A stretch of DNA of 64,000 bases from a bacterium M00.F.Ca.ET.205.01.1.1 (GTDB taxonomy: Bacteria; Pseudomonadota; Alphaproteobacteria; Rhizobiales; Rhizobiaceae), in the NCBI GenBank assembly GCA_004791255.1, contig SRUQ01000005.1:382710-446709 (forward strand), in the 5' to 3' direction. This document shows positions 2,232-20,581 of this stretch, one piece after another. The notes under the pieces were generated by a model that was not told where the DNA came from, searched no databases, and saw nothing but the letters and a program-made list of their open reading frames with translations. Each line of letters opens with the position of its first letter. The first letter of the stretch is position 1. Made by a program: the position numbers and the translations under genes.

Positions 2232-2247
2232 GTGAAATTATTTTCGC
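2232..2247. promoter_or_regulatory. Candidate operator upstream of tdm
   Basis: GTGAAATTATTTTCGC is an imperfect inverted repeat (GTGAAA/TTTCGC with a 4 bp spacer), 38 bp upstream of the tdm start. It differs from the site in front of tmm (20566-20581) at only two positions. The link to a regulator is inferred. Confidence 0.55.
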
Positions 2248-2299
2248 TGAGAGAATAGCAGGGCGATGGCGTTTGGCAAGGCGGGCGGTGGCGGTTTCC

Positions 2300-2443
2300 C
2301 CTTCTCCCCTTGTGGGAGAAGGTGTCGCCGAAGGCGACGGATGAGGGGTGTTCCAGGGAACGCCAACGTGTCACTTCGCTGGAACACCCCTCAACCGTCT
2401 CGGCGCTACGCGCCGATCCACCTTCTCCCACAAGGGGAGAAGG
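2300..2443. repeat. Fold-back intergenic repeat, copy 1
   Basis: A 144 bp palindromic element. The outer 23 bp arms (2300-2322 and 2421-2443) are perfect reverse complements and each arm is itself a hairpin. An inner 15 bp pair (TGAGGGGTGTTCCAG and its complement) is also perfect. A close copy lies at 55516-55660 and a related element at 19439-19606. It resembles the non-coding palindromic repeats scattered through rhizobial genomes. It sits between mgdD and tdm. Confidence 0.85.
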
Positions 2444-2458
2444 CAAGACGCGTCGGCG

Positions 2459-3097
2459 CTACGTCAACTCCCCGGAATGGCCGATCGTGACGCCATACTC
2501 CGCTGCCGAATCCAGCATCGTATGCCACAGGCTCTCGGCAAAAGTCGCGAACACCAGCAGATTGAACACCGCCTGTTCGCCGCGATCCCCACCACGCCAT
2601 AGCGTCACGCTCGTATGGTCCATCGACGTGGCCGCCGCCGCGCCCACCCCCAACACGGCGGGATGCAGATCGATCGACGACAGCTTGGCAAGCATGGTCC
2701 GCGCCTTGGCGCCGGAGATGCTGATCAGCACCCGCGCGTGCGACTGGTCCGAGAGCGATGCGCAGGATGCAAAGGCCTGACCAAGCGCCACCATCGTGTG
2801 CTTGCCGCCTTTCGACAGGACAAAAAACTGATCCGGTCCCGACCAGATAAGGGTGGCGTCGGCGGTTGGGGCTGTCTGCGGTGTCACCGGTGCGGTAACG
2901 CCGAAGCGCGCCTTGGCGACTTTCGCCATCTCGCTTGTCTTGCCGCGCCGCGCCATCACCTGGACGAGGTCGAAATTGCGGATCTCGGTCAGCGACACGC
3001 CGGCGTCGCCGTGCGCGCCATGGCGACCGGCGACCAGTGCGCGATCGAGCGGGCTGCGGACCTCCCAGGAAAACTCAGCCACGCTGACGCCCTCCAT
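2459..3097 (-). CDS. mgdD: N-methylglutamate dehydrogenase subunit D (SoxG-like gamma subunit)
   Basis: Smallest folate-side subunit of the heterotetrameric flavoenzyme, homologous to sarcosine oxidase gamma (SoxG). The 212-residue product contains the SoxG-type ETRN-like segment EIRNFDLVQVMARRG and the C-terminal motif region DHTSVTLWRGGD. I chose ATG 3097 (MEGVSVAEFSWEV), which overlaps the end of mgdC by 23 bp; a GTG at 3082 is possible. A longer frame to 3205 lies wholly inside mgdC and is rejected. It is the last gene of the mgs-gmaS-mgd run. By homology alone it would be called sarcosine oxidase; the adjacent gmaS and mgsABC favour N-methylglutamate dehydrogenase. Confidence 0.8.
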   Translation of the reverse strand: MEGVSVAEFSWEVRSPLDRALVAGRHGAHGDAGVSLTEIRNFDLVQVMARRGKTSEMAKVAKARFGVTAPVTPQTAPTADATLIWSGPDQFFVLSKGGKHTMVALGQAFASCASLSDQSHARVLISISGAKARTMLAKLSSIDLHPAVLGVGAAAATSMDHTSVTLWRGGDRGEQAVFNLLVFATFAESLWHTMLDSAAEYGVTIGHSGELT

Positions 3098-6059
3098 CCG
3101 GATCGTAGAAGACGGGATTGCAGAGTTCGACATCGTAATCCTCGCCGCGCAGGGGATCGTGCGCGTGGACGATTTCGCCGATGCGCTCGCGGCCGCGCTC
3201 GACAAGCGCCAGCCCGATCCACTGGTCCAGGGTCGGGGAGAAGCAGACCGAGGTGATGTAGCCCTGGTCGTTATCAGGACCGGGTGTCAGCCCCTTCGGG
3301 ATGATATGCGCGCCGGAACGCAGGCGCCGCGCTCTGTCGGTTGGCTTGATGCCCACCACAACCTGCCGGTTCGCCGCCACCAGCGCCTCGCGGCCGGCCA
3401 TGACGCGGCCAATGAAATCCTTCTTGGTCGACATCATCTTGCCGAGGCCGAGATCGGCCGCGGTGGTCGTGCCGCTGAGTTCCGGTCCTGCGACGTGGCC
3501 CTTTTCGATGCGCATGACACCCAGCGTTTCGGTGCCGTAAGGTGTCACGCCGAACGGTGCGCCGGCGATCATCAGATTGCGCACCAGCGCCTCGCCATGG
3601 CGGGCTGGGACCGAGATCTCGAACGCCATCTCGCCGGAGAAGGAGATGCGGAACAGCCGCGCCTTGATGCCGCCGCGCAAGCTCACTTCGCGCACGCCCA
3701 TGAAGGGGAAGCCTTCATTGGACAGATCCTCGGCCGGGTCGACGATCTCCTTGAGCAGGTCGCGGGTCTTCGGCCCGGCGATGGAAAATTGCGCCCACTG
3801 GTCGGAGACCGAGGTCAGTTGTACGTCGAGTTCCGGGAACAGCACCTGGCGGCAGAATTCGAGGTGCTGCATCACCAGGCCGGCCTTGGCGGTGGTGGTG
3901 GTGAGGAAATAGTGGTCCTCGGCCAGCCGTGAGGTCGTGCCGTCGTCATAGACGAAGCCGTCCTCGCGCAGCATCAGCCCGTAGCGGGCTTTGCCGACGG
4001 CAAGGTTGGAGAAGGTGTTGATGTAGACGCGATCGAGGAAGGCGCCGGCATCGGGGCCGTGCACGTCGATCTTGCCGAGCGTCGACACGTCGCAGAAGCC
4101 GACGCCTGAGCGCACCGCCTTGACCTCGCGGGTCACCGATTCCAGCCAGTCCTTCTCGCCGGCACGCGGATACCATTGCGCGCGCTTCCATAGCCCGGTG
4201 TCGACGAAGATCGCACCCTGTTCGGCGGCCCAGTGGTGCGACGGCGTCAGCCGCGTCGCATGGAAGTTTTCGTCGCGGTGATGGCCGGCGAAGGCGCCGA
4301 TGGCGACAGGCACATAGGGCGGGCGGTAGATCGTCGTACCGGTCTCGGGGATCGAGCGGCCGGCGACCGCCGCCATGATGGCGAGGCCGGCGACATTCGA
4401 GGTCTTGCCCTGGTCGGTCGCCATGCCGAGCGTGGTGTAGCGCTTGAGATGTTCGACCGATTCAAACCCTTCGCGCTGCGCCAGTTCGATGTCGGACGCG
4501 GTGACGTCGTGTTGCTGATCGACGAAGGCCTTGCCCTTGCCGGCGACATGCCAGAGCGGCGTCAGCGAATAGGCCTCGTCGTCGGCGACCGGCATCGAGC
4601 CGGCACTGCCGCTTCGCCCGGCGTCGCGCGCGGCAGCAGCCCCGGCTTCGAACCCTTCGCGCAGGCAGGCGCCGAGGCCGAAGGCGCCGTTGGCTGCGCC
4701 CGCGGCAACCATGCCGGGCGGTGCGCCATCCGGCACAAAGGCGGCGATGTCGTCACGCCATTTCGGCCGACCGCGATGGTAGGAGGTGAGACCCACGGTC
4801 GGGTTCCAGCCCCCGGACACGGCAAGCCCGTCGGCCTCGACTTCGGCGCGCGACCCGCCGGTCAGCGAAACGGAGAGCGTGCGCACGCCGGCCTTGCCGC
4901 CGTCAACGCTGCTGACGGAGCCGTGCAGCACCGGGAAGCCGCTCTTGCTGGCGAGCGAGCGATGCGCCGGCGAAATCTCCGCCCGCGCGTCGATCACGGC
5001 CGCCACCTGCAATCCGGCGCCCAGCGCGGTTTCGACCGTGCGCCAGCCATCCTCATTGTTGGTGAACAGCGCGATGCGCTTCGCTGGCGTTGCCGCGTAG
5101 CGGCCGATGTAGCTGCGCATTGCCGAGGCCATCATCACGCCGGGCGTGTCGTTGCCGGCAAAGACGATCGGCCGTTCCAGTGCGCCGGCGGCGACCACGC
5201 AGCGCTTCGCCACGATTCGCCACAGCCGCTGCCGAACCTCGTGTTCGGGTGGCGAGGGCAGGTGGTCGTTGACGCGCTCGATGGCGCCGTACGTGCCGCC
5301 ATCATAGACACCGAACAGTGTCGTGCGTGTCATGATGCGCACGTCGGGCAGCGAGGCGAGTTCGGCCAGCGTGCGCGCCAGCCACTCGGCGGCGGGGAGT
5401 CCGTCGATCGTGCCGCCATCGGCGAGCAGGCGACCGCCGGGCACAAAATCCTCTTCGCACAGGATGACGCGCGCGCCGCTGCGGCCGGCGGCAAGGGCCG
5501 CCGCTAGGCCGGCGGGGCCGGAACCGGCGATCACCACGTCGCAATGCGCCCAGGCCTTGTCGTAAAGGTCGGGGTCGGAAGCCACCGCGGCGCGGCCGAG
5601 GCCGGCGGCACGGCGGATTGCCGGCTCGTAGATCGCTTCCCAGAACTTCGCCGGCCACATGAAGGTCTTGTAGTAGAAGCCGGCAACAAAGATCGGCGCG
5701 AACAGCTGGTTGACCGACATGACGTCGAAATTGAGCGACGGCCAGCGGTTCTGGCTGGCGGCTTCGAGGCCTTCATAGAGCTCGGCCGTCGTCGCCTTGG
5801 TGTTCGGCTCGCGCCGCGCGCCGCTGCGCAGTTCGACCAGCGCGTTCGGCTCTTCCGAGCCTGCGGTCAGGATGCCGCGCGGGCGGTGGTATTTGAACGA
5901 GCGGCCGACCAGCTTGACGCCGTTGGCGACCAGTGCGGAGGCGAGCGTGTCGCCCTTGAACCCGGAAAAGGTCTGGCCGTCGAAGCGGAAGCTGAGCGGC
6001 GCGGAGCGGTCGACAAGGCCGCCGGACGTGAGACGATGTGTCTGGGCGGCGGCCATCAT
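3075..6059 (-). CDS. mgdC: N-methylglutamate dehydrogenase subunit C (SoxA-like alpha subunit)
   Basis: Large 994-residue subunit of the enzyme that oxidises N-methylglutamate to glutamate and passes the one-carbon unit to tetrahydrofolate. Residues about 20-80 form the small ferredoxin-like N-terminal domain of SoxA proteins. Residues about 173-300 are a dinucleotide-binding domain (GSGPAGLAAA at 179-188). Roughly the last 390 residues are a GcvT folate-binding domain. Start ATG 6059 overlaps the mgdB stop (ATGA). The open frame extends upstream to 6599, but that stretch is inside mgdB and mgdA and is not coding in this frame. Annotators normally label this gene sarcosine oxidase alpha; context argues for MgdC. 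Confidence 0.85.
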   Translation of the reverse strand: MMAAAQTHRLTSGGLVDRSAPLSFRFDGQTFSGFKGDTLASALVANGVKLVGRSFKYHRPRGILTAGSEEPNALVELRSGARREPNTKATTAELYEGLEAASQNRWPSLNFDVMSVNQLFAPIFVAGFYYKTFMWPAKFWEAIYEPAIRRAAGLGRAAVASDPDLYDKAWAHCDVVIAGSGPAGLAAALAAGRSGARVILCEEDFVPGGRLLADGGTIDGLPAAEWLARTLAELASLPDVRIMTRTTLFGVYDGGTYGAIERVNDHLPSPPEHEVRQRLWRIVAKRCVVAAGALERPIVFAGNDTPGVMMASAMRSYIGRYAATPAKRIALFTNNEDGWRTVETALGAGLQVAAVIDARAEISPAHRSLASKSGFPVLHGSVSSVDGGKAGVRTLSVSLTGGSRAEVEADGLAVSGGWNPTVGLTSYHRGRPKWRDDIAAFVPDGAPPGMVAAGAANGAFGLGACLREGFEAGAAAARDAGRSGSAGSMPVADDEAYSLTPLWHVAGKGKAFVDQQHDVTASDIELAQREGFESVEHLKRYTTLGMATDQGKTSNVAGLAIMAAVAGRSIPETGTTIYRPPYVPVAIGAFAGHHRDENFHATRLTPSHHWAAEQGAIFVDTGLWKRAQWYPRAGEKDWLESVTREVKAVRSGVGFCDVSTLGKIDVHGPDAGAFLDRVYINTFSNLAVGKARYGLMLREDGFVYDDGTTSRLAEDHYFLTTTTAKAGLVMQHLEFCRQVLFPELDVQLTSVSDQWAQFSIAGPKTRDLLKEIVDPAEDLSNEGFPFMGVREVSLRGGIKARLFRISFSGEMAFEISVPARHGEALVRNLMIAGAPFGVTPYGTETLGVMRIEKGHVAGPELSGTTTAADLGLGKMMSTKKDFIGRVMAGREALVAANRQVVVGIKPTDRARRLRSGAHIIPKGLTPGPDNDQGYITSVCFSPTLDQWIGLALVERGRERIGEIVHAHDPLRGEDYDVELCNPVFYDPDGGRQRG

Positions 6060-8976: not shown

Positions 8977-10305
8977 TTAGAAGCTGTTTTTCCCCGGTAT
9001 CCAGTTGGTGCCGGCCAGCGGGACGCCGGCCATGGCTGCTGCCTCGATCGTGAGCGCGACGAGGTCTTCGGGTTCGAGATTGTGCAGGCTGTTCTTGCCG
9101 CACGCGCGGGCAATGGTTTGAGCTTCGAGCGTCATCACCTTGAGGTAATTCGCCAGGCGCCGTCCGGCCGCGATCGGGTCGACCCGCTTCATCAGCTCGG
9201 GGTCCTGCGTGGTGATGCCGGCGGGGTCGCGGCCTTCGTGCCAGTCGTCATAGGCGCCTGACGTGGTGCCGAGCTCGTTGTACTCCGCCTCCCAGCGGGG
9301 ATCGTTGTCGCCGAGCGCCACCAGCGCTGCCGTGCCGATCGATACGGCGTCGACGCCAAGGGCCATCGCCTTGGCGACATCGGCGCCGTTGCGGATGCCG
9401 CCGGAGACGATCAGCTGCACCTTGCGGTGCATGCCGAGGTCCTGCAGTGCCTGCACCGCCGGCCGGATACAGGCAAGCGTCGGCTGGCCGACATTCTCGA
9501 TGAACACTTCCTGCGTCGCCGCCGTGCCGCCTTGCATGCCGTCGACGACGACGACGTCGGCGCCGGCCTTCACCGCGAGCGCGGTGTCGTAATAGGGGCG
9601 GGCGCCGCCGACCTTGACGTAGATCGGCTTTTCCCAGTCGGTGATTTCGCGCAGCTCGAGAATCTTGATCTCGAGATCGTCGGGCCCGGTCCAATCTGGG
9701 TGACGCGAGGCCGAGCGCTGGTCGATGCCTTTGGGCAGCGTGCGCATCTCGGCGACGCGGTCGGAGATCTTCTGGCCGAGCAGCATGCCGCCGCCGCCTG
9801 GTTTGGCGCCCTGGCCGACGACCACCTCGATGGCGTCGGCGCGGCGCAGGTCGCGCGGGTTCATGCCGTAGCGCGAGGGCAGATATTGATAGACCAACTG
9901 CTTGGAATGACCGCGCTCTTCCTCGGTCATGCCGCCGTCGCCAGTGGTGGTCGAGGTGCCGGACAGCGTCGCACCGCGTCCGAGCGCTTCCTTGGCCGGG
10001 CCGGAAAGCGAGCCGAAGCTCATGCCGGCGATGGTGATCGGGATCTTCAGCTCGATCGGCTTCTTGGCATGACGCGAACCCAGCACCACCGAAGTGTCGC
10101 AGCGCTCGCGATAGCCTTCCAGCGGGTAGCGCGAGATCGAGGCGCCGAGGAACAGAAGGTCGTCGAAATGCGGCAGCTTGCGCTTGGCGCCGGCGCCCCG
10201 GATATCATAGATGCCGGTCGCCGCGGCGCGGCGGATTTCGGAAAGCGTGTAGTCGTCGAAGGTCGCGGATTTGCGCGGTGTCGTCGGCGGGTTGCGGTAC
10301 GTCAT
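8977..10305 (-). CDS. mgsC: N-methylglutamate synthase subunit C (FMN-binding GltB-like domain)
   Basis: FMN-binding synthase subunit, 442 residues, homologous to the central domain of glutamate synthase and to rhizobial GlxD. In the MgsABC complex it would build N-methylglutamate. Visible motifs are the FMN-barrel segments IYVKVGGARPYYDTALAVKAG, VVDGMQGGTAATQEVF and LIVSGGIRNGADVAKAMALG. The segment that in GltB carries the cysteines of the 3Fe-4S cluster reads DDWHEGRDPAGITTQDP here, with no cysteine. It starts 6 bp after mgsB, so it is coupled, and is followed 32 bp later by gmaS. Alternative label: FMN-binding glutamate synthase family protein of unknown role. Confidence 0.85.
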   Translation of the reverse strand: MTYRNPPTTPRKSATFDDYTLSEIRRAAATGIYDIRGAGAKRKLPHFDDLLFLGASISRYPLEGYRERCDTSVVLGSRHAKKPIELKIPITIAGMSFGSLSGPAKEALGRGATLSGTSTTTGDGGMTEEERGHSKQLVYQYLPSRYGMNPRDLRRADAIEVVVGQGAKPGGGGMLLGQKISDRVAEMRTLPKGIDQRSASRHPDWTGPDDLEIKILELREITDWEKPIYVKVGGARPYYDTALAVKAGADVVVVDGMQGGTAATQEVFIENVGQPTLACIRPAVQALQDLGMHRKVQLIVSGGIRNGADVAKAMALGVDAVSIGTAALVALGDNDPRWEAEYNELGTTSGAYDDWHEGRDPAGITTQDPELMKRVDPIAAGRRLANYLKVMTLEAQTIARACGKNSLHNLEPEDLVALTIEAAAMAGVPLAGTNWIPGKNSF

Positions 10306-11050: not shown

Positions 11051-11947
11051 TCAATGCTCCCAGAAATACACGGTTGCGGGCTCCGGCTCCCAGACCCGCG
11101 CATTGTCGATGCCGGGCAGCTTGGTGAGCGCGCGATATTCGGAGCCGAAAGCGACATACTGGTCGGTCTCGGCCATCACGGCGGGCTTGCAGGCGATCGG
11201 GTCGCGTACGACGCCGAAGCCATTCTTGGTGCCGACGACGAAGGTGAAGAAGCCGTCGAGGTCGGAGAGCGTGCCTTCCAGCGCCTCACCGAGATTCTTT
11301 CCGTGCGCCATCTGCGAGGAGAGATAGGCGGCAGCCACCTCGGTGTCGTTCTCGGTTTCGAATGTCATGCCCTCGCGGACCAGCTCGCGCCGCACATTGT
11401 TGTGGTTGGAGAGCGAACCATTGTGCACCAGGCACTGGTCGGCGCCCGTCGAGAAGGGATGCGCGCCCATCGTCGTCACCGCCGATTCCGTAGCCATGCG
11501 GGTGTGGCCGATGCCATGCGTGCCGGTCATCTTGCGCACGTCGAAGCGATCGACGACGGCTTCCGGCAGGCCGACTTCCTTGTAGATTTCCACTGCCTCG
11601 CCGGCGCCCATGACGCGCACGTCGGGACGAAGCGATTGAAGCGCCGCACGCGCCGCGTCGACCTTGTCGGGCGTCGTCCTGATAACCGCATGCGTCGATT
11701 TCGCCGCGATGCTGACAGGTGCGCCGATGGCTTTTGCGAGTTCGGCGTCCAGTCCGCGGAAATCGCGTTCCGGCTTCGGCGACTGGATGGTGATCTTGGC
11801 TTCGTTGCCGGACGGGGCGCCATAGATGGCGATGCCGGCACTGTCCGGACCACGGTCGGTCAGACAGATCAGCATCTCCGACAGCATCGCGCCGAGCTTC
11901 GGCTCGAGCGCCTTGTCCTTCAGGAACAATCCAACGATTCCGCACAT
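11051..11947 (-). CDS. mgsA: N-methylglutamate synthase subunit A (class II amidotransferase)
   Basis: A 298-residue Ntn-type glutamine amidotransferase-like protein, related to GlxB and the first domain of GltB. The frame from ATG 11947 begins MCGIVGLF, placing Cys2 as the N-terminal nucleophile. GHTRMATESAV and LVHNGSLSNHNNVRREL are class II substrate-binding motifs. A strong ribosome site, GGGAGG, lies about 6 bp upstream. It is the first gene of the mgsABC-gmaS-mgdABCD run. The candidate operator at 12012-12027 is 65 bp upstream. In the pathway it would release methylamine from gamma-glutamylmethylamide for transfer. Confidence 0.87.
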   Translation of the reverse strand: MCGIVGLFLKDKALEPKLGAMLSEMLICLTDRGPDSAGIAIYGAPSGNEAKITIQSPKPERDFRGLDAELAKAIGAPVSIAAKSTHAVIRTTPDKVDAARAALQSLRPDVRVMGAGEAVEIYKEVGLPEAVVDRFDVRKMTGTHGIGHTRMATESAVTTMGAHPFSTGADQCLVHNGSLSNHNNVRRELVREGMTFETENDTEVAAAYLSSQMAHGKNLGEALEGTLSDLDGFFTFVVGTKNGFGVVRDPIACKPAVMAETDQYVAFGSEYRALTKLPGIDNARVWEPEPATVYFWEH

Positions 11948-12011
11948 GTCAGCCTCCCGACGTTTGTGACTAAGAGATGATGTACCGAATGAGTCCCTTG
12001 AATTCAATGGT

Positions 12012-12027
12012 ATGAAAAAATTTTTCC
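12012..12027. promoter_or_regulatory. Candidate operator upstream of mgsA
   Basis: ATGAAAAAATTTTTCC, in the 85 bp between the permease operon end and mgsA. It has the same ATGAAA/GTGAAA-N4-TTTC layout as sites at 2232, 15428 and 20566, with a degenerate right arm. It sits 65 bp from the mgsA start codon. Confidence 0.4.
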
Positions 12028-12032
12028 TCTGG

Positions 12033-12362
12033 TTACGTATGCGGCTCAATGCCGCTCTGCGCGATCTCGCTGTCGCGCCGGGTAGTGTGAAGCCATTTGG
12101 CGGTGCGGATACGAGCGATCTTGTAGGCGTCGAGGATCGACAGCGCATAGATCAGGAAGCCACCGGCGTGGCGGCCGACGAAGCTGGCATCCGGCGGCGC
12201 GATCTTGGCTGTCACCCATGCCAGAATGACGATGAAGAAAAGGAATTGCAGGCCGCGCACCGGTACGCCGAGCACGACATGGCCGCTGCCTGGCAGCACG
12301 GTCGCCGCGCCCAGGACAAGGTAGGGGCTTGTCGGCGCTGACGCGGTGGTCGGACTGGTCAT
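12033..12362 (-). CDS. Small membrane protein of unknown function
   Basis: A 109-residue product that I do not recognise. Residues about 15-50 and 65-80 are hydrophobic (GAATVLPGSGHVVLGVPV, LQFLFFIVILAWVTAKI, HAGGFLIYALSILDAY), suggesting two or three membrane passes followed by a charged cytoplasmic tail with several arginines. Its start overlaps the stop of the upstream 229-residue gene (ATGA), so the two are coupled. It is the last gene of the six-gene block 12033-15364 and lies immediately upstream of the mgsA promoter region. A link to methylated-amine transport is inferred only from position. Confidence 0.75.
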   Translation of the reverse strand: MTSPTTASAPTSPYLVLGAATVLPGSGHVVLGVPVRGLQFLFFIVILAWVTAKIAPPDASFVGRHAGGFLIYALSILDAYKIARIRTAKWLHTTRRDSEIAQSGIEPHT

Positions 12363-13048
12363 GCGGCCTGCTGTTCGTTCTTGTTGCTGGCATCGCGAAG
12401 GTTGGACAGGGATGTGAGCAGCCGCTCGATCAGCGCCGGATCGATGGCACCGCCGCCGAACGCCGCCTGCCGGAACACGCCATAGCGTGCCCGCTCGGCC
12501 TCGGCCAGCAGCCAGACGACGCGCACGCCGTTGGGTGTGATCAGCAATTCCTTGGCGCGGCCTTCGCTGAACAGTTCGAGATGAGTGGAGATGATGCCTT
12601 GCGGAAAGCGCGTGCCCCTGCGGTCGGTCCGCAGCACCGCCTCGGCTGGAAAGCCCGGAGCCTTCGGCAGCGTATGGTCGAGATGGTCGAAATTGGAGAA
12701 TGTCGTCGGCGAGCCCGGCCGCATCATCATGTCGAAGACAGCCGGCACGGCGACCTTTTCGGTGATCGAGACAGACAGCCAGCGCGTCGGCAGTTTTCGC
12801 GTCGCCAGCGTATCAACGATGGTGCGCACCTGCACGCGCCGGCCGTTCCAGGATCCCTCCCAGGTGATGACGCCGGCGGTGCCGTCCGAGACGTTGGCCG
12901 CGTCGGCGATGACGATGCGAATGGCGGCCTGGTCGGCGGCGAGCGAGGCTGCCTTCCTGTCGCGGCTGCGGCGCGCCAGCCACGCGAGGTGAAGGATGAG
13001 CGCCAGGGCGATCGTCCCGGCAAGCAATGCTGATGTCACCTCGGACAT
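12359..13048 (-). CDS. Membrane-anchored protein of unknown function
   Basis: 229 residues. An N-terminal hydrophobic helix (about residues 5-27, LLAGTIALALILHLAWLA) is followed by a basic stretch and a soluble domain of about 190 residues that I cannot place in a family. The layout suggests a membrane anchor with a cytoplasmic domain. It follows the APC permease after 45 bp and overlaps the next gene by 4 bp. A shadow frame exists on the plus strand, but codon bias and the coupled spacing favour this one. Confidence 0.75.
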   Translation of the reverse strand: MSEVTSALLAGTIALALILHLAWLARRSRDRKAASLAADQAAIRIVIADAANVSDGTAGVITWEGSWNGRRVQVRTIVDTLATRKLPTRWLSVSITEKVAVPAVFDMMMRPGSPTTFSNFDHLDHTLPKAPGFPAEAVLRTDRRGTRFPQGIISTHLELFSEGRAKELLITPNGVRVVWLLAEAERARYGVFRQAAFGGGAIDPALIERLLTSLSNLRDASNKNEQQAA

Positions 13049-13093: not shown

Positions 13094-14500
13094 TCAATAT
13101 CCCTGCGGCTTCGGCCACGGCATGGTGAACTGGTCGCCGCGACGTACGAATCTGTAGCGGTAGAAGTGGAACCACAGCGAGATCAGGAAGTAGAAGGCGA
13201 CCATGGCGATCAGCTGCGAGCCGAAGCCGAGGAAGATGGCGAAGAAGGTCACCACGCACAGGCAGAACAGCACGATTGCCGGCAGCGGATGGAAGGGGTG
13301 GGTGTAGCCGCGGCGGATCGACCCCAGCGGCCACTTCTTCCTGAACATCATGATGTTGATGCTCATGAAGGTGTATTGCAGCACGCCCGACAGGATCGAG
13401 AAGGTAATCGCCTGGTTGAGGTCGGCGATGAAGGCGAAGGCGAGCGCGATCGGCAGCAGGAACAGGATCGAGCGGTAGGGCGTGCGATAACGCGGATGCA
13501 CCGCCGAAAACCAGCTCGGCAGATAACGGTCGCGGCCGAGCGAGAACCAGGCGCGTGCCGCGTCGTTGATGCAGCCATTGGCCGAGGCAAGTGCCGCCAG
13601 CAGCGTGGCGATGAACAGCAGGTTCTCGAGTAGCGGGCTGCCGGTCAGCTTGCCCGCGTCCCACAGCGGATAGTAAGTAATGCCGAGATATTCCCAGGGC
13701 ATCAGCGAGGCGCAGACATACCAGGTCATTGCGGCAGCGATCAGAAGCGTGATCATGCCGGCCATCGTGCCGTAGGGAAGCGAGCGCGCCGGCGAACGCA
13801 CTTCCTCGGCCGCCTGCGTCGTGCCTTCGATGCCGAGATAATACCAGATGCCGAACTGGAAGGCGGCGATGACGCCGATCCAGCCATAGGGCAGCGCATT
13901 GCCCGGGGTGACCAGTTCGTTGAGCTTCAGCACCGCACCTTGCGTCCACGGGCTGACCGAGAAGAACAAGACGACGATCGAGACATAGGCGATTGCCGTG
14001 ATGACGAAGTTGACGTTGAGCGTCATCAGCACGCCGCGATAGTTGAGCCACGCCAGCACCACGATGGTGGCGGCGATGAAGGAATTGTGCGTGAGCCCCT
14101 CGACACCGGCCTTGGCGACGATGGTGTCGCCGAGCAGGATGGCATCGGACACTTCGAGCATGGTGTAGGCGAACACCAGGAACAGCGCCACGTTGAAGGC
14201 CATCAGCGGCCCGACGATATGCTTGGCTTGCGCATACTGGCCGCCGGCGGCGGCGACGGTCGACGTCACCTCCGAATCGATCATGGCGACCGATGTGTAG
14301 AGCAGGCCGACGATCCAGCAGACGATCAGTGCGGCCAGCGCGCCGCCCTTGTCGGCCGCGAAATTCCAGCCGGTGAATTCGCCGACCAGAACGATGCCGA
14401 CGCCGAGCGCCCAGACATGCGCCGGCCCCAGTACCCTGAGCAGCGAAACCCTGTCGCCGTGGATTGTCGTCGTTTGTGCCGTTTCAACCGCAGCCGTCAT
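13094..14500 (-). CDS. APC-superfamily permease (ethanolamine/amino-acid type)
   Basis: A 468-residue integral membrane transporter with about 12 hydrophobic segments. GPAHVWALGVGIVLVGEFTG is the first-helix glycine motif typical of APC amine and amino-acid permeases of the ethanolamine permease group. FGIWYYLGIEGTTQAAEEVR is the conserved helix 6 region. Flanking genes are short membrane proteins on the same strand; there are no ethanolamine-utilisation genes nearby. Its position between mgsABC and dmmDABC makes uptake of methylamine, dimethylamine or another small amine plausible (inference). It starts 11 bp after the 53-residue membrane protein. Confidence 0.85.
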   Translation of the reverse strand: MTAAVETAQTTTIHGDRVSLLRVLGPAHVWALGVGIVLVGEFTGWNFAADKGGALAALIVCWIVGLLYTSVAMIDSEVTSTVAAAGGQYAQAKHIVGPLMAFNVALFLVFAYTMLEVSDAILLGDTIVAKAGVEGLTHNSFIAATIVVLAWLNYRGVLMTLNVNFVITAIAYVSIVVLFFSVSPWTQGAVLKLNELVTPGNALPYGWIGVIAAFQFGIWYYLGIEGTTQAAEEVRSPARSLPYGTMAGMITLLIAAAMTWYVCASLMPWEYLGITYYPLWDAGKLTGSPLLENLLFIATLLAALASANGCINDAARAWFSLGRDRYLPSWFSAVHPRYRTPYRSILFLLPIALAFAFIADLNQAITFSILSGVLQYTFMSINIMMFRKKWPLGSIRRGYTHPFHPLPAIVLFCLCVVTFFAIFLGFGSQLIAMVAFYFLISLWFHFYRYRFVRRGDQFTMPWPKPQGY

Positions 14501-14511
14501 GTCAGCCCCAC

Positions 14512-14673
14512 TCAGATCCGGTGTTTTTCAGAAACGGCTTCAAGTTCACCTTCACGCGACGACGTGAGCATGTCCTCGCTGTAGGTCGTATCGACCTTGA
14601 ACCAGTCGTAAAGCATCCAGAGCGCAAGAACGATCGAGATGCCCCAGCATGCATAGGAAAGTGCCATCCACAT
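14512..14673 (-). CDS. 53-residue single-pass membrane protein
   Basis: A short frame from ATG 14673 to TGA 14512: MWMALSYACWGISIVLALWM at the N-terminus is one hydrophobic helix, followed by a polar acidic tail. GGGGA lies about 5 bp before the start. It fills the gap between the 125-residue protein (15 bp) and the permease (11 bp), as expected for a coupled operon gene. Small single-pass proteins often act as accessory subunits of transporters; that role here is inference. A competing frame at 14502-14759 gives a serine/arginine-rich sequence and looks like a shadow. Confidence 0.7.
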   Translation of the reverse strand: MWMALSYACWGISIVLALWMLYDWFKVDTTYSEDMLTSSREGELEAVSEKHRI

Positions 14674-14688
14674 GATCGTGTCCCCGGA

Positions 14689-15066
14689 TTATTTGTCGTC
14701 GAACTTTTCGTTGATGACGTCGCGATATTCGCGGTCGGATGCGCGGAACAGGAAGACAAAATAACCGATCAGCACGATCGCCATGATGATCAGCGTCGGC
14801 CAGTCGATAATGTAGTGAAAGCGGTTCTGGATGATGTCATGGGCGGTTTCCGGCGTGTAGCCGAGCTTCTCCCAGATCGAGGCCATGGTCGGGTTCTGGC
14901 CGAGCGCTTCCCAGGTCTTGGCGTCGAGTGCGTCAATGGATTTCGCAGCGCCGGCAAGGCCAAGCTTCAGCGGCAGCCACAGCGCCACGAAAATGGCGAC
15001 CACGACCACGGCGATGTCGAAGACCTGCCCGGCTTTGCTCTGCTCCGGAGGCTTGTAACGGGACAT
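14689..15066 (-). CDS. Two-pass membrane protein of unknown function
   Basis: 125 residues with two predicted membrane segments (about 16-40, VFDIAVVVVAIFVALWLPLK, and 89-106, WPTLIIMAIVLIGYFVFL) and an external or internal loop of about 45 residues between them. The tail is charged (REYRDVINEKFDD). I do not recognise the family. It starts 10 bp after the 95-residue gene and precedes the 53-residue gene by 15 bp. It looks like part of a membrane complex with its neighbours and the APC permease. Confidence 0.8.
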   Translation of the reverse strand: MSRYKPPEQSKAGQVFDIAVVVVAIFVALWLPLKLGLAGAAKSIDALDAKTWEALGQNPTMASIWEKLGYTPETAHDIIQNRFHYIIDWPTLIIMAIVLIGYFVFLFRASDREYRDVINEKFDDK

Positions 15067-15076
15067 GCTTTTACCC

Positions 15077-15364
15077 TCAGGATTTGCTGTTGCGGAACGC
15101 GTCGGCGTTCTTGATGTCGAGCCCGTAGATGAACTCCTTGTCTTCCTTGTAGTGCTTGACCATCGCCAGGATGGCCGCGGTGTTGAAGATCAGCACCGCG
15201 GCGGCGGCAATCGCGACGACTGCCTTGATGCCGCTGTGCGGAATGTAGGGCCATGTCATGAGGAGGACGAAGAGGATCGTCGCCCACAGGCAGATGATCA
15301 GGAGCGCGGATCCGCGCAAGTCGGAGCGATACAGCGCCTCGATGCGCTGCTGCAGGTCTGACAT
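15077..15364 (-). CDS. Two-pass membrane protein of unknown function, first gene of permease operon
   Basis: 95 residues from ATG 15364 (MSDLQQRIEAL), preceded by AAGAAGGGG at a good ribosome-site distance; an in-frame start at 15403 lacks such support. Hydrophobic segments at about 20-40 (SALLIICLWATILFVLLMTW) and 47-67 (VVAIAAAAVLIFNTAAILAM) suggest two passes, with a charged C-terminus (HYKEDKEFIYGLD). No family recognised. It opens the minus-strand block that includes the APC permease and has a candidate operator 64 bp upstream at 15428-15443. Confidence 0.8.
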   Translation of the reverse strand: MSDLQQRIEALYRSDLRGSALLIICLWATILFVLLMTWPYIPHSGIKAVVAIAAAAVLIFNTAAILAMVKHYKEDKEFIYGLDIKNADAFRNSKS

Positions 15365-15427
15365 CGGTTTTCCCCTTCTTGCCGCGTCCGGTTCCGAATC
15401 CACCGTCCGCGGCTCTCTTTCAAGAGA

Positions 15428-15443
15428 GTGAAATTTTTTTCAT
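15428..15443. promoter_or_regulatory. Candidate operator in divergent permease-operon/dmmD region
   Basis: GTGAAATTTTTTTCAT, an inverted repeat with arms GTGAAA and TTTCAT and a 4 bp spacer. It lies 64 bp upstream of the minus-strand operon start and 207 bp upstream of dmmD. A weaker look-alike (ATGAAATTATTTGCTT) is at 15527-15542, nearer dmmD. One protein could control both divergent units; that is inference. Confidence 0.5.
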
Positions 15444-15649
15444 AAATTCAGACCGAATTCCGCAATTGTCAAGACGAATTTACGTCGGGTTAACCGTTGG
15501 GCTCCAGTGAACAATTTTGCCTGACAATGAAATTATTTGCTTCAAGGGGATTGCAGGCCTGCCGCGTTTGCGGTCAATATTCCAACCAAAGCTCCGGCCT
15601 TGGGCAAAGGAGCAGGGAACAGTTTGATTTTCGAACGGAGGACGAGCGG

Positions 15650-16783
15650 ATGACGGCATCCTGGAGATTTTCGACCCTGGCGGACCGCCATCGCGCGCTG
15701 GGTTCGAAGCTCGAAGACTGGAGCGGCATGGGCACCGCCTGGACCTATGACAAGGATGCCGACGAGGAATATGTCGCCATCCGCACCAAGGCCGGGCTGA
15801 TGGATGTCTCCGGCCTGAAGAAAGTCCACATTACTGGCCCGCACGCCTCGCATCTCATCGACCTCGCCACCACGCGCGACGTCGAAAAGATCTATCCCGG
15901 CAAGTCGGCCTATGCCTGCATGCTGAACGAAGCAGGAAAATTCACCGACGACTGCATTCTCTACCGCACCGGGCCGAACGCCTGGATGGTGGTGCATGGC
16001 TCGGGCAGCGGCCACGAGGAGTTGCAGCGCGCTTCGGTCGGGCGTGACGTGTCGCTGCGCTTTGACGACAATCTGCACGATCTGTCGCTGCAGGGGCCGA
16101 CCGCTGTTGACTATTTGGCCAAGCACGTGCCCGGCATTCGCGACCTCAACTATTTCCATCACATGCAGACGCAGCTCTTCGGCTTCCCGGTGATGATCTC
16201 GCGCACCGGCTACACCGGCGAGCGCGGCTACGAGATTTTCTGCCGCGGCCAGGATGCCGGCACGATCTGGGACAGAATCCTCGACGAGGGCAAGAGCGCC
16301 GGCATCATTCCCTGCCGCTTCACCACGCTCGATATGCTGCGGGTCGAGAGCTACCTGCTGTTTTACCCCTATGACAATTCGCAGAAATACCCGTTCGAGA
16401 ACGAAGGCCCTGGCGACACGCTGTGGGAACTCGGCCTCGACTTCACCGTCAGCCCAGGCAAGACCGGGTTCCGTGGCGCCGAGGAACACTACCGGCTCAA
16501 GGGCAAGGAGCGGTTCAAGATCTATGGCGTTCTGCTCGAGGGCAAGGAGCCGGCCGATGAGGGGGCGCCGGTCTATCGCGACGGCAAAAAGGTCGGCGTG
16601 GTTACCTGCGCCATGTATTCGCCGCTGGTCGAGAAATCGATGGGCATCGCCCGGCTCGACGTCGACTGCGCGATCAAGGACACCACGCTCGAGATCCGCA
16701 ACCGGAGCGGCGCGATCAAGGCGACGGCGCAGCCCTTACCCTTCGACGATCCCAAGAAGACCAAGCGCACCGCCAAGGGTTGA
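15650..16783 (+). CDS. dmmD: Dimethylamine monooxygenase-associated GcvT-like protein (DmmD)
   Basis: 377-residue aminomethyltransferase-fold protein, probably binding tetrahydrofolate and capturing the one-carbon unit released during dimethylamine demethylation. GcvT features seen are VSGLKKVHITGP near the N-terminus and SRTGYTGERGYEIF in the middle. I chose ATG 15650, preceded by GGAGGA; an open frame from 15497 has no ribosome site. It is first in the order D-A-B-C described for dmmDABC and lies 42 bp before dmmA. A generic aminomethyltransferase or dimethylsulfoniopropionate-demethylase-like annotation is the sequence-only alternative. Confidence 0.8.
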   Translation: MTASWRFSTLADRHRALGSKLEDWSGMGTAWTYDKDADEEYVAIRTKAGLMDVSGLKKVHITGPHASHLIDLATTRDVEKIYPGKSAYACMLNEAGKFTDDCILYRTGPNAWMVVHGSGSGHEELQRASVGRDVSLRFDDNLHDLSLQGPTAVDYLAKHVPGIRDLNYFHHMQTQLFGFPVMISRTGYTGERGYEIFCRGQDAGTIWDRILDEGKSAGIIPCRFTTLDMLRVESYLLFYPYDNSQKYPFENEGPGDTLWELGLDFTVSPGKTGFRGAEEHYRLKGKERFKIYGVLLEGKEPADEGAPVYRDGKKVGVVTCAMYSPLVEKSMGIARLDVDCAIKDTTLEIRNRSGAIKATAQPLPFDDPKKTKRTAKG

Positions 16784-16825
16784 GCTACCATCGACAGCGA
16801 GGGTTTTTAAGGCACGAAGTAGAGA

Positions 16826-17422
16826 ATGGCAGCCAAGACCATCATCAGCCGGCCCGTTTACGGAACTCTCTCGCCGCAGCCCGGCAAGCATCATCTGTTT
16901 ATCGCCGACGCCGAAGGCGCGCTGGCGATTACCGACATGGCCCGAACTGCACCGTCCGGATTTTTCGACGGGGCTGAGATCGTCTTCATCCCCGGGCCCG
17001 ACGGCAAGCACGCCGGGGCGCTTGAAGCGCTGAAGCCGACCCAGTTTCACCTCGCGCCGTCCTTCGCCAGCCTGCTGCCGAGGCTGAAGCAGACGCTGAC
17101 CAACGCTCATATGGGGCTGCGCCTCTATCTCGCCGGCACCGAAGGGTTGATCGGCCAGGCCATGCAGGTGGCGCTCGAAGCCGGCATCGACCACACCTCC
17201 ATGCAGACCGAGCACCGCGGCTCGCTGGCGCGGCGCATGCAATGCGTGCACTGCAAGGGCATTACCGAGAACGTGACCACCCAGCCCGCGACCTGTTCGC
17301 ATTGCGGCCTGCTGCTTCTGGTGCGCGACCACTATTCGCGGCGGCTCGCCGCCTTCCAGGGCGTCTGCATCAACGCCGAGGACCGCTCCGAGATTCCTCC
17401 GATCGAGGAGGCCTTCCCATGA
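16826..17422 (+). CDS. dmmA: Dimethylamine monooxygenase small subunit, DmmA-like
   Basis: 198 residues. The C-terminal part holds a zinc-ribbon-like pair of CxxC motifs (CVHCKG and CSHCG) about 15 residues apart and ends in an acidic tail. The N-terminal two thirds has no motif I can name. It overlaps dmmB by 4 bp (ATGA) and follows dmmD by 42 bp. Presence between a GcvT protein, a Fe-S flavin reductase and a DUF3445 heme protein matches the dmmDABC / heme-dependent oxidative N-demethylase operon. Subunit lettering follows the operon order and could differ between publications. Confidence 0.75.
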   Translation: MAAKTIISRPVYGTLSPQPGKHHLFIADAEGALAITDMARTAPSGFFDGAEIVFIPGPDGKHAGALEALKPTQFHLAPSFASLLPRLKQTLTNAHMGLRLYLAGTEGLIGQAMQVALEAGIDHTSMQTEHRGSLARRMQCVHCKGITENVTTQPATCSHCGLLLLVRDHYSRRLAAFQGVCINAEDRSEIPPIEEAFP

Positions 17423-18384
17423 GCACCGGCACCACCAAGCTCGATGTCGTCGTCAGCGATGTCGTTCCGGTCAACGAACTGGTTACCCGCTTCCATTTCC
17501 GCCGCCGCGACGGCGAGCTTCTGCCGACCTTTTCAGGGGGCGCCCATGTCGTGGTCGAGATGCGCGATGGCGAGCGCACCAGGCTCAATCCCTATTCGCT
17601 GATGGGCTCGCCGCTCGACACGCGCGAGTATACGATTTCGGTGCGCCGCGACGATGTCGGCCGCGGCGGTTCGCTGTTCATGCACAGGGCGGTCAAACCC
17701 GGCCTGGAGATGGTGATCAGCTATCCCGTCAACCTGTTTTCGCTCGACCTCAGGGCCAGGAAGCATCTGATGCTGGCGGGCGGCATCGGCATCACCCCGT
17801 TCATGGCACAGACCGCGCAACTGGCGGGAGCCGGCGGCAATTTCGAACTGCACTACACCTGCCGCACCGCTTCGCTCGGCACCTATGCCGACGTCCTTCA
17901 GCAACGCTATGGGGGCAGGATCAGACTCTATCACGACGACCGCGAGGAGCGCATCGAACTCGACCGGCTTCTGTCCTCGCAGCCGCTTGGCACGCATCTC
18001 TATGTCTGCGGCCCGGCCGGCATGATCAACTGGGTGCGTGATCGCGCCTCAGCGCTCGGCTGGCCGCCGGAGACCGTGCATTTCGAGCATTTCGCCGCGC
18101 CCCAGCCCGGCGCGCCGTTCGATGTAACGCTGGCCGTCAGCGGCAAGACGATCCGCGTCGGCTCGCAGCAGAGCCTGCTGGAGGCGATCGAGGCGGCCGG
18201 CGTCGATCCGCCCTATCTCTGCCGCGGCGGCGTTTGCGGCCAGTGCGAGACCAACGTCATTTCCCACGACGGCAAGTTCATCCACAACGATCACTGGCTG
18301 AGCGAGGAAGACCACCGTTCCGGCTGCAAGATCATGCCCTGCGTGTCGCGCTTCGAGGGCAAATCGCTGGTCTTGGAAAGATAG
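17419..18384 (+). CDS. dmmB: Dimethylamine monooxygenase reductase (PDR/VanB-type), DmmB-like
   Basis: 321-residue electron-transfer reductase that would deliver NAD(P)H electrons to the heme subunit. The N-terminal flavin domain contains LNPYSLMGSP. The nucleotide-binding region has AGGIGITPFMAQ and YVCGPAGMI. The C-terminal plant-type [2Fe-2S] ferredoxin domain has CRGGVCGQC followed by a downstream cysteine (KIMPC). Start ATG 17419 overlaps the dmmA stop; a longer frame from 17242 lies in dmmA. The family includes phthalate dioxygenase reductase and VanB; the DUF3445 neighbour makes N-demethylase the likely partner. Confidence 0.85.
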   Translation: MSTGTTKLDVVVSDVVPVNELVTRFHFRRRDGELLPTFSGGAHVVVEMRDGERTRLNPYSLMGSPLDTREYTISVRRDDVGRGGSLFMHRAVKPGLEMVISYPVNLFSLDLRARKHLMLAGGIGITPFMAQTAQLAGAGGNFELHYTCRTASLGTYADVLQQRYGGRIRLYHDDREERIELDRLLSSQPLGTHLYVCGPAGMINWVRDRASALGWPPETVHFEHFAAPQPGAPFDVTLAVSGKTIRVGSQQSLLEAIEAAGVDPPYLCRGGVCGQCETNVISHDGKFIHNDHWLSEEDHRSGCKIMPCVSRFEGKSLVLER

Positions 18385-18393
18385 GAGGCGAGC

Positions 18394-19434
18394 TTGGGCA
18401 TCACCTTTCGCAAGGAAACGTTTCGCGACGATTTCACGTTCAAGAACAGTCCTGAGCACATCAGGCGGTTTCCGTTCCCATTCCACGAAGACAGCTACAT
18501 GTACGCGGTCAATATCGAGCCGCATGTCGTCGGCCCGAAGGGCTCGGTGCTGGAAAACCTGATCGACGTCGACGAGCACTATGTCGCCGAGATGCAGGAC
18601 CGCGCTCTGGTGCTGGCCGAGGATCCGCTGCGCTGCCAATCGCTGCCGCACATGACCCTGGCCGGCTGGGATCTGCTCGAGCTTTTGATGGAGCAGCAGG
18701 CGCTGGGCTATCCCGAGCATTTCACGCTGACCCGCGACGGCGACCGCTGGCGCTGGATCAACCGGCCGCTCGGCATCGACGACACCTTCACCTTCGGCGA
18801 CACCTCGACGCTGCCCTATGGCCCGATGGAGTACATCACCCGCCAGAGCCAGGGCGATTTCTGCATCCTTGACCAGCGCGACGGCAATCTGTGGATGGAT
18901 GCCGGCATGGTCACCACCCAGGCCGACTGGTCGCTCGATTTCGACATCGGCATGAACTTCTTCGAGTGGCACGCGCCGGTGCCGCTGGCGCATGAGAAGG
19001 GGATTTTCGTCAGGGCGCTGAAGTTCCTCACCAACATCCAGCAGGGCAAGCCGGCACGGCGCCTGAACTGGACCATGACCATCAATCCGCGCCTCGACAC
19101 CAGCCCGGAAAATTATCACAAATGGGGTCCGGACCGGGGCACGGTGACGCCGGAAAATGTCGGCGACAAGGTGCATCTGCGCGTCGAACTGCAGAGCTTC
19201 TGGCGGCTGCCGCGCTCCAACGGCATCGTCTTCCCGATCCGCTGCTACCTGATCAAGATGGACGAACTGGTGACGCAGCCGAAATGGGCGCGGCGCCTGC
19301 ACCGCGTCATCCGCGACCTGCCCGAGGAACTCGCCACCTACAAGGGTTTGACGCGTTATCGGCCGACGCTGGTCGAGTGGCTGTCCAAGCTGGATGACGG
19401 GAGTGCGACCAGCCCGGGATTTGGGCCGGACTGA
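18394..19434 (+). CDS. dmmC: Heme-dependent oxidative N-demethylase alpha subunit (DUF3445), DmmC-like
   Basis: 346-residue catalytic subunit of the DUF3445 family. In Pseudomonas mendocina this family is a PAS-fold heme protein that oxidatively demethylates dimethylamine to methylamine and formaldehyde. The translation starts at TTG 18394 with AGGAGG just upstream and has no better ATG near it. Recognisable family stretches are FPFPFHEDSYMYAVNIEPHV, RCQSLPHMTLAGWDLLELLM and VELQSFWRLPRSNGIVFPIR. It ends the dmmDABC operon, 9 bp after dmmB, and is followed by a fold-back repeat at 19439. Confidence 0.85.
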   Translation: MGITFRKETFRDDFTFKNSPEHIRRFPFPFHEDSYMYAVNIEPHVVGPKGSVLENLIDVDEHYVAEMQDRALVLAEDPLRCQSLPHMTLAGWDLLELLMEQQALGYPEHFTLTRDGDRWRWINRPLGIDDTFTFGDTSTLPYGPMEYITRQSQGDFCILDQRDGNLWMDAGMVTTQADWSLDFDIGMNFFEWHAPVPLAHEKGIFVRALKFLTNIQQGKPARRLNWTMTINPRLDTSPENYHKWGPDRGTVTPENVGDKVHLRVELQSFWRLPRSNGIVFPIRCYLIKMDELVTQPKWARRLHRVIRDLPEELATYKGLTRYRPTLVEWLSKLDDGSATSPGFGPD

Positions 19435-19606: not shown

Positions 19607-19624
19607 ACTGCTGCGGCGGTCCGA

Positions 19625-20350
19625 CTACCCCGCGCTGCTCTGCGGATAGCAGATGATCGACAGATACCGCATCGGCAGTTTCGTCAGCTGCTCCGGCCCA
19701 TGTGGGGCGTCCGCGTCGAAGAACAGGCTATCGCCCGGCTTCATCGGATAGAGGTTGCTGCCGTGCCGGTATACCACCTCGCCCTCCAGCATATAGAGGA
19801 ACTCCATGCCCTCGTGCTGGAAGGTCGGGAACACATCGGAATCTTCGGTCAGGGTGATGAGGTAGGGTTCGACGACGACGCCGCTGGTGTTGGAGCCGAT
19901 ATGGCCAAGCAGATTGTATTGATGGCCGGCGCGCGTGCCGCGGCGCTCGACATCGAGGCCCTGGCCGGCCTTGACGAAGACGGCGCTGCGCTCTTCCTCG
20001 AAGCGGCGGAAGAAGGCGGTCACGGGAACGCCGAGCGCCCGCGACAATGCCTGCAGCGTGGTCAGCGACGGCGATGTAATGCCGTTCTCGATCTTCGACA
20101 GCATGCCCAGCGAAATGTCGGTGGCGACGGCGAGATCGGCGACGGTGATGCCGAGCTTCTTGCGGAAAGCCCGCACCTCGCGGCCGATCGCCACCTCCAG
20201 AACCTTCTCGCGGGTGTCGCGAATGGCATGCGGGTTCTGCGTCAGCGGCGCCCGGATGGTCTTTCCGTCCGCCGACACCTTCGGCAACGGCTTTGCCTTT
20301 GCGCCAGCGGAGCCGGGACCGGCCTTGGGATCGGAAATTTTCTTCGCCAT
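19625..20350 (-). CDS. XRE-family regulator with C-terminal cupin
   Basis: 241 residues. A disordered, lysine/proline-rich N-terminal 45 residues is followed by a helix-turn-helix (about 57-110, LGITVADLAVATDISLGMLS with SPSLTTLQALSRALGV) and a cupin sensor domain (about 165-235, EGMEFLYMLEGEVVYRHG and PGDSLFFDADAPHGPEQL). Such proteins sense small ligands through the cupin. It sits between dmmC and tmm, divergent from tmm, and an inverted repeat lies 15 bp upstream of its own start. It is the best candidate for the regulator of the methylated-amine genes; that assignment is inferred. Confidence 0.88.
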   Translation of the reverse strand: MAKKISDPKAGPGSAGAKAKPLPKVSADGKTIRAPLTQNPHAIRDTREKVLEVAIGREVRAFRKKLGITVADLAVATDISLGMLSKIENGITSPSLTTLQALSRALGVPVTAFFRRFEEERSAVFVKAGQGLDVERRGTRAGHQYNLLGHIGSNTSGVVVEPYLITLTEDSDVFPTFQHEGMEFLYMLEGEVVYRHGSNLYPMKPGDSLFFDADAPHGPEQLTKLPMRYLSIICYPQSSAG

Positions 20351-20364
20351 CTCGCCCCCGAACC

Positions 20365-20391
20365 GTGAAGATTTATTTCACCCAAGGTGAA
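20365..20391. promoter_or_regulatory. Compound operator upstream of the XRE gene
   Basis: Two overlapping inverted repeats: GTGAAGATTTATTTCAC (20365-20381, arms GTGAA/TTCAC) and TTCACCCAAGGTGAA (20377-20391, perfect 6 bp arms with a 3 bp spacer). They end 15 bp before the regulator's start codon, a position suited to autoregulation. Confidence 0.55.
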
Positions 20392-20565
20392 CATGTCAGG
20401 TGGCGATACAGGAGCGCAACCGTGACGGCAAGCCATCTTATGTCGCACGAGTCGGCCCGGCCGTTGCAACCCCTCCAAGTTTTTCGCCAGGAATCCGTTG
20501 TGCGCAAACGCGGTTCCCGCAGATGTCGGTTGACAGCACCGAAGCGCCAATTAATGTCACTGTCA

Positions 20566-20581
20566 GTGAAATTTGTTTCGC
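20566..20581. promoter_or_regulatory. Candidate operator upstream of tmm
   Basis: GTGAAATTTGTTTCGC, 31 bp before the tmm start codon. It matches the tdm site at 2232-2247 at 14 of 16 positions. A perfect short palindrome, TCACTGTCAGTGA, lies directly upstream at 20557-20569 and shares its last bases. Confidence 0.55.

Follow-up and report, generated by a model that had tools for sequence, protein, structure and literature searches.

An operator-like element at seven promoters of a Mesorhizobium methylated-amine locus and its candidate XRE-cupin regulator

The 64,000-nucleotide stretch of DNA analysed here (the window; contig SRUQ01000005.1, positions 382,710 to 446,709) belongs to the 6.9-Mb genome of the Mesorhizobium bacterium M00.F.Ca.ET.205.01.1.1. 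The window contains a methylated-amine pathway consisting of tmm, dmm, mgs and gmaS, together with a permease gene, an OpuAC/ATP-binding cassette (ABC) transporter (tmo) and a gene for an XRE-cupin protein (xre), which is probably the regulator of a family of putative operators in this locus (Table 1). The dmm genes were recognised by DmmA-like and HODM-like subunits, gmaS by its likeness to type III glutamine synthetases and mgs as an amidotransferase/glutamate-synthase series. The XRE-cupin protein has the Cro/C1-type helix-turn-helix (HTH) and the C-terminal cupin that define its class (Pfam HTH_3, 58.4 bits with a cut-off of 23; Cupin_2, 51.4 bits with a cut-off of 27.2) and is up to 97-98% identical to Mesorhizobium homologues. 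Its AlphaFold model has a mean pLDDT of 48, with values above 50 at residues ~50-116 only and a poor cupin part. According to an original prediction made from the DNA letters, this protein is the sole regulator of the locus, and a shared GTGAAA-N4-TTTC operator precedes five transcription units. Pfam and NCBIfam scans of a part of the amine-locus open reading frames (ORFs), to which tdm and the sequence left of the window start did not belong, revealed no HTH protein besides the XRE-cupin protein.

A 28-bp element, which consists of a weak and variable left half followed by roughly RRTGAAATTWTTTT, is present at seven sites within 24 kb. In the alignment on TGAAA, the second base of the left half-site is T in 7/7, there are three free bases, and RR is found in 5/7; the right part reads TGAAAT (TGAAAA at mgsA) and passes into an A/T run. 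This longer model covers the five sites proposed earlier and, in addition, sites at dmmD and tmoX. In a leave-one-out analysis, in which up to six top places may be occupied by training sites, the seven sites held the ranks 4, 7, 7, 7, 8, 9 and 14 of 127,946 positions in the window. The geometric mean rank was 7.5 as compared with a control minimum of 20.3, and for the left 12 bases alone it was 415 as compared with 3,805. As controls, 300 random sets of seven were drawn from the 20 AT-rich among 75 other TGAAA sites.

Table 1. Candidate operators and genes of the methylated-amine locus (positions in the window)
Feature	Position	Strand	Remarks
Operator at tdm (TTTGCCTGTGTG TGAAATTATTTTCGCT)	2221..2248	+	over predicted start of minus-strand promoter (-3..+24)
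Operator-like element at mgsA (AATTCAATGGTA TGAAAAAATTTTTCCT)	12001..12028	+	on/upstream of predicted -35 of minus-strand promoter (-56..-29)
Operator at divergent permease-side ORF (CTTTCAAGAGAG TGAAATTTTTTTCATA)	15417..15444	+	over predicted start (-6..+21)
Operator at dmmD (TTTGCCTGACAA TGAAATTATTTGCTTC)	15516..15543	+	upstream of predicted -35 (-70..-43); absent from the original prediction
Operator at xre	20365..20392	-	core palindrome TTCACC-TTG-GGTGAA at 20377-20391, on predicted -10/start (-8..+19)
Operator at tmm (TGTCACTGTCAG TGAAATTTGTTTCGCT)	20555..20582	+	over predicted start (-9..+18)
Operator at tmoX (CGTTTCATAGGA TGAAATTATATATACC)	26420..26447	+	TTTCAT-N3-ATGAAA; over minus-strand TATAAT -10 (26441-26436) and predicted start
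XRE-cupin regulator gene (P0001, 241 aa)	19625..20350	-	HTH_3 59-111, Cupin_2 168-232
tmm, FMO-like trimethylamine monooxygenase	20613..21971	+	Pfam FMO-like; gene name from the original prediction, fits the locus
tdm, N-terminal 731 aa	2..2194	-	continues beyond the window; name from the original prediction
mgsA, glutamine-amidotransferase-like subunit	11051..11947	-	first of the mgsABC-gmaS series
Rest of the mgsABC-gmaS series	mgsB ORF from 10312; mgsC 8977-10305; gmaS ORF from 7637
Permease side	13094..15364	-	AA_permease gene 13094-14500 and 95-aa ORF 15077-15364; 15417-15444 operator in front
dmm operon	15650..19434	+	dmmD 15650-16783, dmmA 16826-17422, reductase to 18384, HODM-like subunit 18394-19434
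tmo ABC transporter genes	21977..26084	-	tmoV 21977-23956, tmoW 23953-25032, tmoX 25110-26084; names from the original prediction and context

The shorter motif GTGAAA-N4-TTTC is exact at three of its five proposed places, namely 2232 (tdm), 15428 (permease side) and 20566 (tmm), but not at 12012 (mgsA) and 20365 (xre). When up to one mismatch was allowed on both strands, 7 matches were obtained, six of which are these three near-palindromes counted twice; the shuffled mean was 1.6, and 0/100 shuffles reached 7. The tdm and tmm copies are identical at 14/16 bases, as had been stated, and the measured distances of 14-64 bp to the start codons (tdm 2194, mgsA 11947, permease-side ORF 15364, xre 20350, tmm 20613) agree with the predicted 15-65 bp. 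At mgsA, position 12012 reads ATGAAAAAATTTTTCC and deviates from the motif by at least 3 mismatches; it fits under the longer model only. The site at 15428 had been assigned to the permease operon and dmmD together. By position it belongs to the divergent permease-side ORF; it lies 222 bp before dmmD, which has a site of its own. The variant announced upstream of tmoX was found as TTTCAT-N3-ATGAAA at 26422-26436, inside a conserved block.

The permease operator overlaps a 7-pair hairpin with a T run at 15412-15429 (+). A reading of this site as a terminator or hairpin was disfavoured, one arm being altered in loci L112, L122, L135 and L144 with the core kept.

Relatives of the window were used for evaluating conservation. 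The XRE gene was present in 112/119 searched genomes of the genus Mesorhizobium, own genome included, and 100 of the 111 other XRE-bearing genomes were used; the remaining 11 had contig ends or less similar XRE matches. Family loci and a set of named loci were also evaluated. Some of the named loci come from genomes that already contributed a genus or family locus, and the counts for the named set are therefore not independent. Upstream regions were aligned only if the protein match started within the first 15 residues, and alignment rows needed at least 60% of the anchor. A row was scored if identity reached 50% and coverage 40%, if the match began no later than residue 15 and if 80% or more of the stretch was present; the palindrome count required only a length of 150.

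Across the genus, the sites at the pathway genes are well conserved. The tmm 16-bp core is exact in 82/86 other genus loci (within 350 bp), and AGTGAAATTTGTTTCG is near-invariant there within an otherwise variable region. The tdm core occurs with 0-1 mismatch in 11/11 other genus tdm upstreams and is near-invariant in the 12 upstreams that include the window. At the permease side, the core is exact in 68/74 and has 0-1 mismatch in 73/74 other genus loci. The dmmD site is conserved as TTTGCCTGACAATGAAATTATTTGC before dmmD in genus loci, where it scores at least 10 in 88/89 cases (shuffled 34/445). Moreover, a model omitting mgsA assigned at least 10 to the mgsA site in 89/94 genus loci (shuffled 15/470), and a GAA-N7-TTC-like element stands directly before the -35 TTG of mgsA in 93/94 genus and 27/29 family loci. 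For tmoX, all 27 named loci with upstream sequence reached this score (shuffled 8/135), and the block TATATAATTTCATCCTATGAAAC is near-invariant in 28 loci (27 named and the window). By comparison, upstreams of genes without a site (soxB, soxA, gmaS, mgsB, mgsC, dmmB, dmmC) scored at least 12 in 1/626 genus rows. With tmoV, tmoW and the named and family rows added (nine genes), 2/1,062 rows did so.

The promoter of the XRE gene carries the own-promoter palindrome that is typical of the XRE-cupin class. The pattern TTYACY-N3-RGTRAA is exact in 98/100 genus, 68/80 named and 12/40 family loci, as compared with 0/660 shuffled sequences, and with a stricter start choice it was found in 90/90 genus loci. 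The invariant part across the genus is GTTCACC-N3-RGTGAAAT. The site placed at 20365 is GTGAA-N7-TTCAC and has a different spacing; conservation resides in the adjoining palindrome TTCACC-TTG-GGTGAA. The reading as GTGAA-N7-TTCAC was discarded, as most of its right CTTCAC arm varies across the genus. The half-site RGTGAA resembles the half that is common to the other operators, and the TCACY-N3-RGTGA spacing resembles that of the lambda operator. In the loci L148, L154, L257 and L264 the palindrome is altered to TTTACT-N3-GATAAA; L257 and L264 possibly stem from the genomes that also gave L148 and L154.

Genome-wide searches differed in specificity between the loose and the refined motifs. With up to two mismatches, the loose motif GTGAAANNNNTTTCRC gave 330+340 = 670 matches in the own genome and 217+227 = 444 in the reversed control (~1.5x), and it is exact at 5 places, 2 of them in this locus. 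It is thus common in the genome, and GTGAAA-N4-TTTC alone would not single out the amine locus. TTYACY-N3-RGTRAA occurs at 2 places in the 6.9 Mb, the xre promoter and the inside of an ORF that resembles a peroxiredoxin gene (reversed control 0). The pattern TNNMNNNNNRTGAAATTWTNT, which was derived from the sites themselves, has 6 exact matches, 4 of them in the amine locus; with up to one mismatch there are 17 matches, 5 of them in the locus (reversed control 4). Furthermore, RRTGAAATTNNTTTC is present in 104/119 genus genomes, whereas the reversed control gave 5 matches over all 119. Among the 150 matches listed, which come from 66 genus genomes, 104 are no more than 10 kb away from the XRE gene; ~0.3% would be expected in that range.

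The distribution of the genes also bears on the assignment of the XRE-cupin protein to these sites. In the 7/119 genus genomes that lack this XRE gene, searches for mgsA and tmm (E 1e-60) and for RRTGAAATTNNTTTC gave no match. The examined stretch around the XRE gene contains an mgs or gmaS gene in 94/100 genus and 29/40 family loci. In the genus loci L112, L122, L135, L142 and L144 the XRE, mgsA and permease genes are present, with no tmm or dmmD in the examined stretch; the neighbourhood of the XRE gene may have the monomethylamine part as its core. Variation within the protein itself was compared with the mgsA half-site. In one family clade, the residue after the recognition helix (position 92, in a loop) has changed from T to I (once V), together with a change of the mgsA half-site and the loss of the xre palindrome. 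Among 172 overlapping rows, 150 have T with TTCAY, 17 have I and 1 has V with TTC[CT], 4 have T with TTC[CT], and none has I with TTCAY. The loci of this clade often hold an AraC-type gene. Since a single evolutionary event is concerned and an AraC-type gene is frequent in that clade, the link with residue 92 is only suggestive.

Sequence comparisons make it probable that the XRE-cupin protein controls all of the methylated-amine locus as a local regulator responding to a ligand, similar to PuuR and PauR. The original idea of one operator family in front of several units, with the XRE-cupin protein as its likely regulator, is sustained by the conservation, the specificity of the refined motifs and the xre palindrome; corrections were needed in the motif as such, at two sites that had been fitted to it and in the list of sites. 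Several observations weigh against this assignment. Whether a genome has the XRE gene is confounded with whether it has the pathway, and the association of residue 92 with the mgsA half-site represents one clade-level change (1 independent pair, 135 distinct rows). Among the 150 RRTGAAATTNNTTTC matches listed, 46 are away from the XRE gene, and 8/112 XRE-bearing genus genomes have no match. The fit of mgsA is only moderate, with a deviating spacing (GAA-N7-TTC). A score of at least 10 within 95 bp of the start was reached by tmm in only 54/85 genus loci and, at tdm, in 1/4 named loci the score was at least 10; the stricter 24-bp pattern at dmmD is exact in 53/89 and has 3-4 mismatches in 17. 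For some promoters, shuffled upstreams score at least 10 in up to 8-10% of draws (dmmD: 34/445 genus, 3/30 family). Family loci are weaker, with the xre palindrome exact in 12/40 and the sites found in 22/29 (mgsA), 2/5 (tmm), 4/6 (dmmD) and 0/1 (permease). The promoter hexamers are weak at several genes, and a generic promoter scan of 15300-15700 found no promoter. Finally, the seven sites were chosen partly by eye ahead of the rank test; therefore, the conservation among species and the genome-wide specificity constitute the more independent evidence.

Another objection concerns the xre site itself, which, under a model of the other six, scores at least 10 in only 18/90 genus, 18/62 named and 1/11 family loci. 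This poor score implies that what the xre palindrome has in common with the other operators is mainly the RGTGAAA half, and two proteins could be involved. The XRE-cupin protein would then act on its own TTYACY-N3-RGTRAA (perhaps also at tmm), and an unlinked protein would act on TGAAATTWTTTTC at tdm, tmm, the permease, dmmD and tmoX. We consider this arrangement unlikely, even though, besides the low score in 18/90 genus loci, the conserved right part ATTWTTTTC is missing from the xre promoters of relatives, and tdm and dmmD have TTGCCT instead of TTYACY as their left half. All seven sites contain the TGAAA half and an equally spaced left half, beyond what the control sets gave, and matches to the refined pattern are concentrated around the XRE locus, in keeping with a local regulator.

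A partial objection applies to mgsA and perhaps dmmD, whose elements could be A/T-tract UP elements or sites of an AraC/GlxA-type activator like TmaR instead of members of this operator family. The mgsA element is A/T-rich and abuts the -35 in 27/29 family and 93/94 genus upstreams, an AraC-type gene is found in 16/40 family loci, and in R. pomeroyi TmaR binds at the promoter of gmaS-mgs (PMC13390433). However, the element also occurs in loci where the AraC gene was not found, the window included, the best match to the AraC protein in the own genome is 37% identical, and the GAA...TTC ends are conserved. We regard this explanation as rather unlikely for these sites. It is highly improbable that all similarities are due to chance AT-rich, promoter-like sequence in a G+C-rich genome. 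The ~1.5x excess of the loose motif and the terminator-like hairpin at the permease site would fit such an explanation, but the AT-rich TGAAA rank controls, the conservation in the genus and the specificity of the refined motifs speak against it, as does the variation of one hairpin arm in L112, L122, L135 and L144 while the permease core stays.

If the XRE-cupin protein is the regulator, it would bind the seven sites as a dimer. The sites at tmm, tdm, the permease side, xre and tmoX (5 of 7) cover the predicted transcription start, and repression would therefore be expected at these four promoters and at its own gene. The -35 and -10 hexamers were picked by eye, and those of tmoX and the permease shift by one base. 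Release of the repressor would be expected from a pathway metabolite held in the cupin, such as one of the methylated amines or an intermediate of the gamma-glutamyl or N-methylglutamate type. PuuR, for instance, is released by putrescine. At dmmD and mgsA the site is located on the predicted -35 or further upstream, a position that would suit activation, so that the protein could either activate or merely modulate these two promoters. It is conceivable, though we regard it as tentative, that a single XRE-cupin protein works in two modes by repressing uptake, the entry steps for trimethylamine (TMA) and trimethylamine N-oxide and itself while activating dmm and mgs, and thereby fulfils the roles of both TmaR and TmoR.

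TmaR (AraC family) and TmoR (GntR family) of the marine model Ruegeria pomeroyi DSS-3 likewise exert local control over tmm, tdm, dmm and gmaS-mgs genes (PMC13390433). In this organism, tdm, dmm, gmaS-mgs and mgd are activated by TmaR, and tmm is repressed by TmoR and, slightly, by TmaR; the inducer of TmaR is a product of monomethylamine (MMA) (PMC13390433). The candidate described here differs from both in its XRE-cupin family, and XRE and cupin are not mentioned in the main text of that article (PMC13390433). An AraC query from locus L167, which is a family-locus protein and not the TmaR sequence itself, matched neither the window nor any of the 100 genus loci, which extend only ~2 kb to one side, and no search aimed at TmoR was made. 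In 16/40 family loci (among L166-L191), a TmaR/GlxA-like gene of the AraC type is present whose product combines a DJ-1/PfpI with an AraC domain, e.g. L167:5461-6420, and in several of them, such as L167 and L182, it lies directly upstream of xre.

Judged by analogy, the closest mechanism is that of a PuuR-like repressor of a gamma-glutamylation pathway. PuuR, PauR and other XRE-cupin regulators combine HTH_3 and cupin domains, bind palindromes, have a site at their own gene and control neighbouring catabolic genes (PMC7901475). The amine pathway under the control of PuuR and PauR proceeds by gamma-glutamylation (PMC7901475); in the locus described here, gmaS is the gene with which such a pathway starts. 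Known XRE-cupin proteins of Pseudomonas act as local repressors on palindromes beside their own genes (PMC7901475), and their sites are reportedly located at about -20 to +10 of promoters (PMC12724383). DbuR of Pseudomonas putida, also a repressor of the XRE-cupin class, has its palindrome over the -10 of the catabolic operon next to it; it differs in controlling a single operon through another palindrome (PMC12724383). The protein encoded in the window scores 50.8 bits on the NCBIfam equivalog NF007408 (PuuR), the cut-off of which is 211, and thus falls outside that family. Further differences are the seven predicted local promoters, as compared with one or two targets for all regulators of that article but PauR with its 12 scattered locations (PMC7901475), and the two sites in activator-like positions.

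In Rhodobacteraceae methylamine clusters, an XRE-family regulator has been drawn as co-occurring with genes for TMA, dimethylamine and MMA, but in the available part of that article the regulator is not studied and no operator is described (PMC7574528). In a literature search covering titles and abstract openings, with most subscription papers and bioRxiv preprints outside its coverage, no XRE-cupin regulator was found to be described for this pathway. For Ruegeria, the master regulator of TMA use was published only in 2026 (PMC13390433). If the proposed role is correct, a second, unrelated regulator controls much the same genes in rhizobia, and control of the pathway would have been assembled independently. 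The locus would also offer a compact, testable regulon of seven promoters with exactly defined operators, and its candidate repressor, responding to amines, might serve as a biosensor.

Some minor features of the locus and the genome may be added. Rfam gave 0 matches at the gathering threshold for positions 1-34000. A 229-aa ORF at 12359-13048 (-), between mgsA and the permease, had no Pfam or NCBIfam match. The exact palindrome GTGAATTATTTTTCAC elsewhere in the own genome (L014:1500-2136) was considered as a regulon member and rejected; it precedes two small ORFs, which resemble a toxin-antitoxin pair, and probably belongs to an unrelated self-controlled module.

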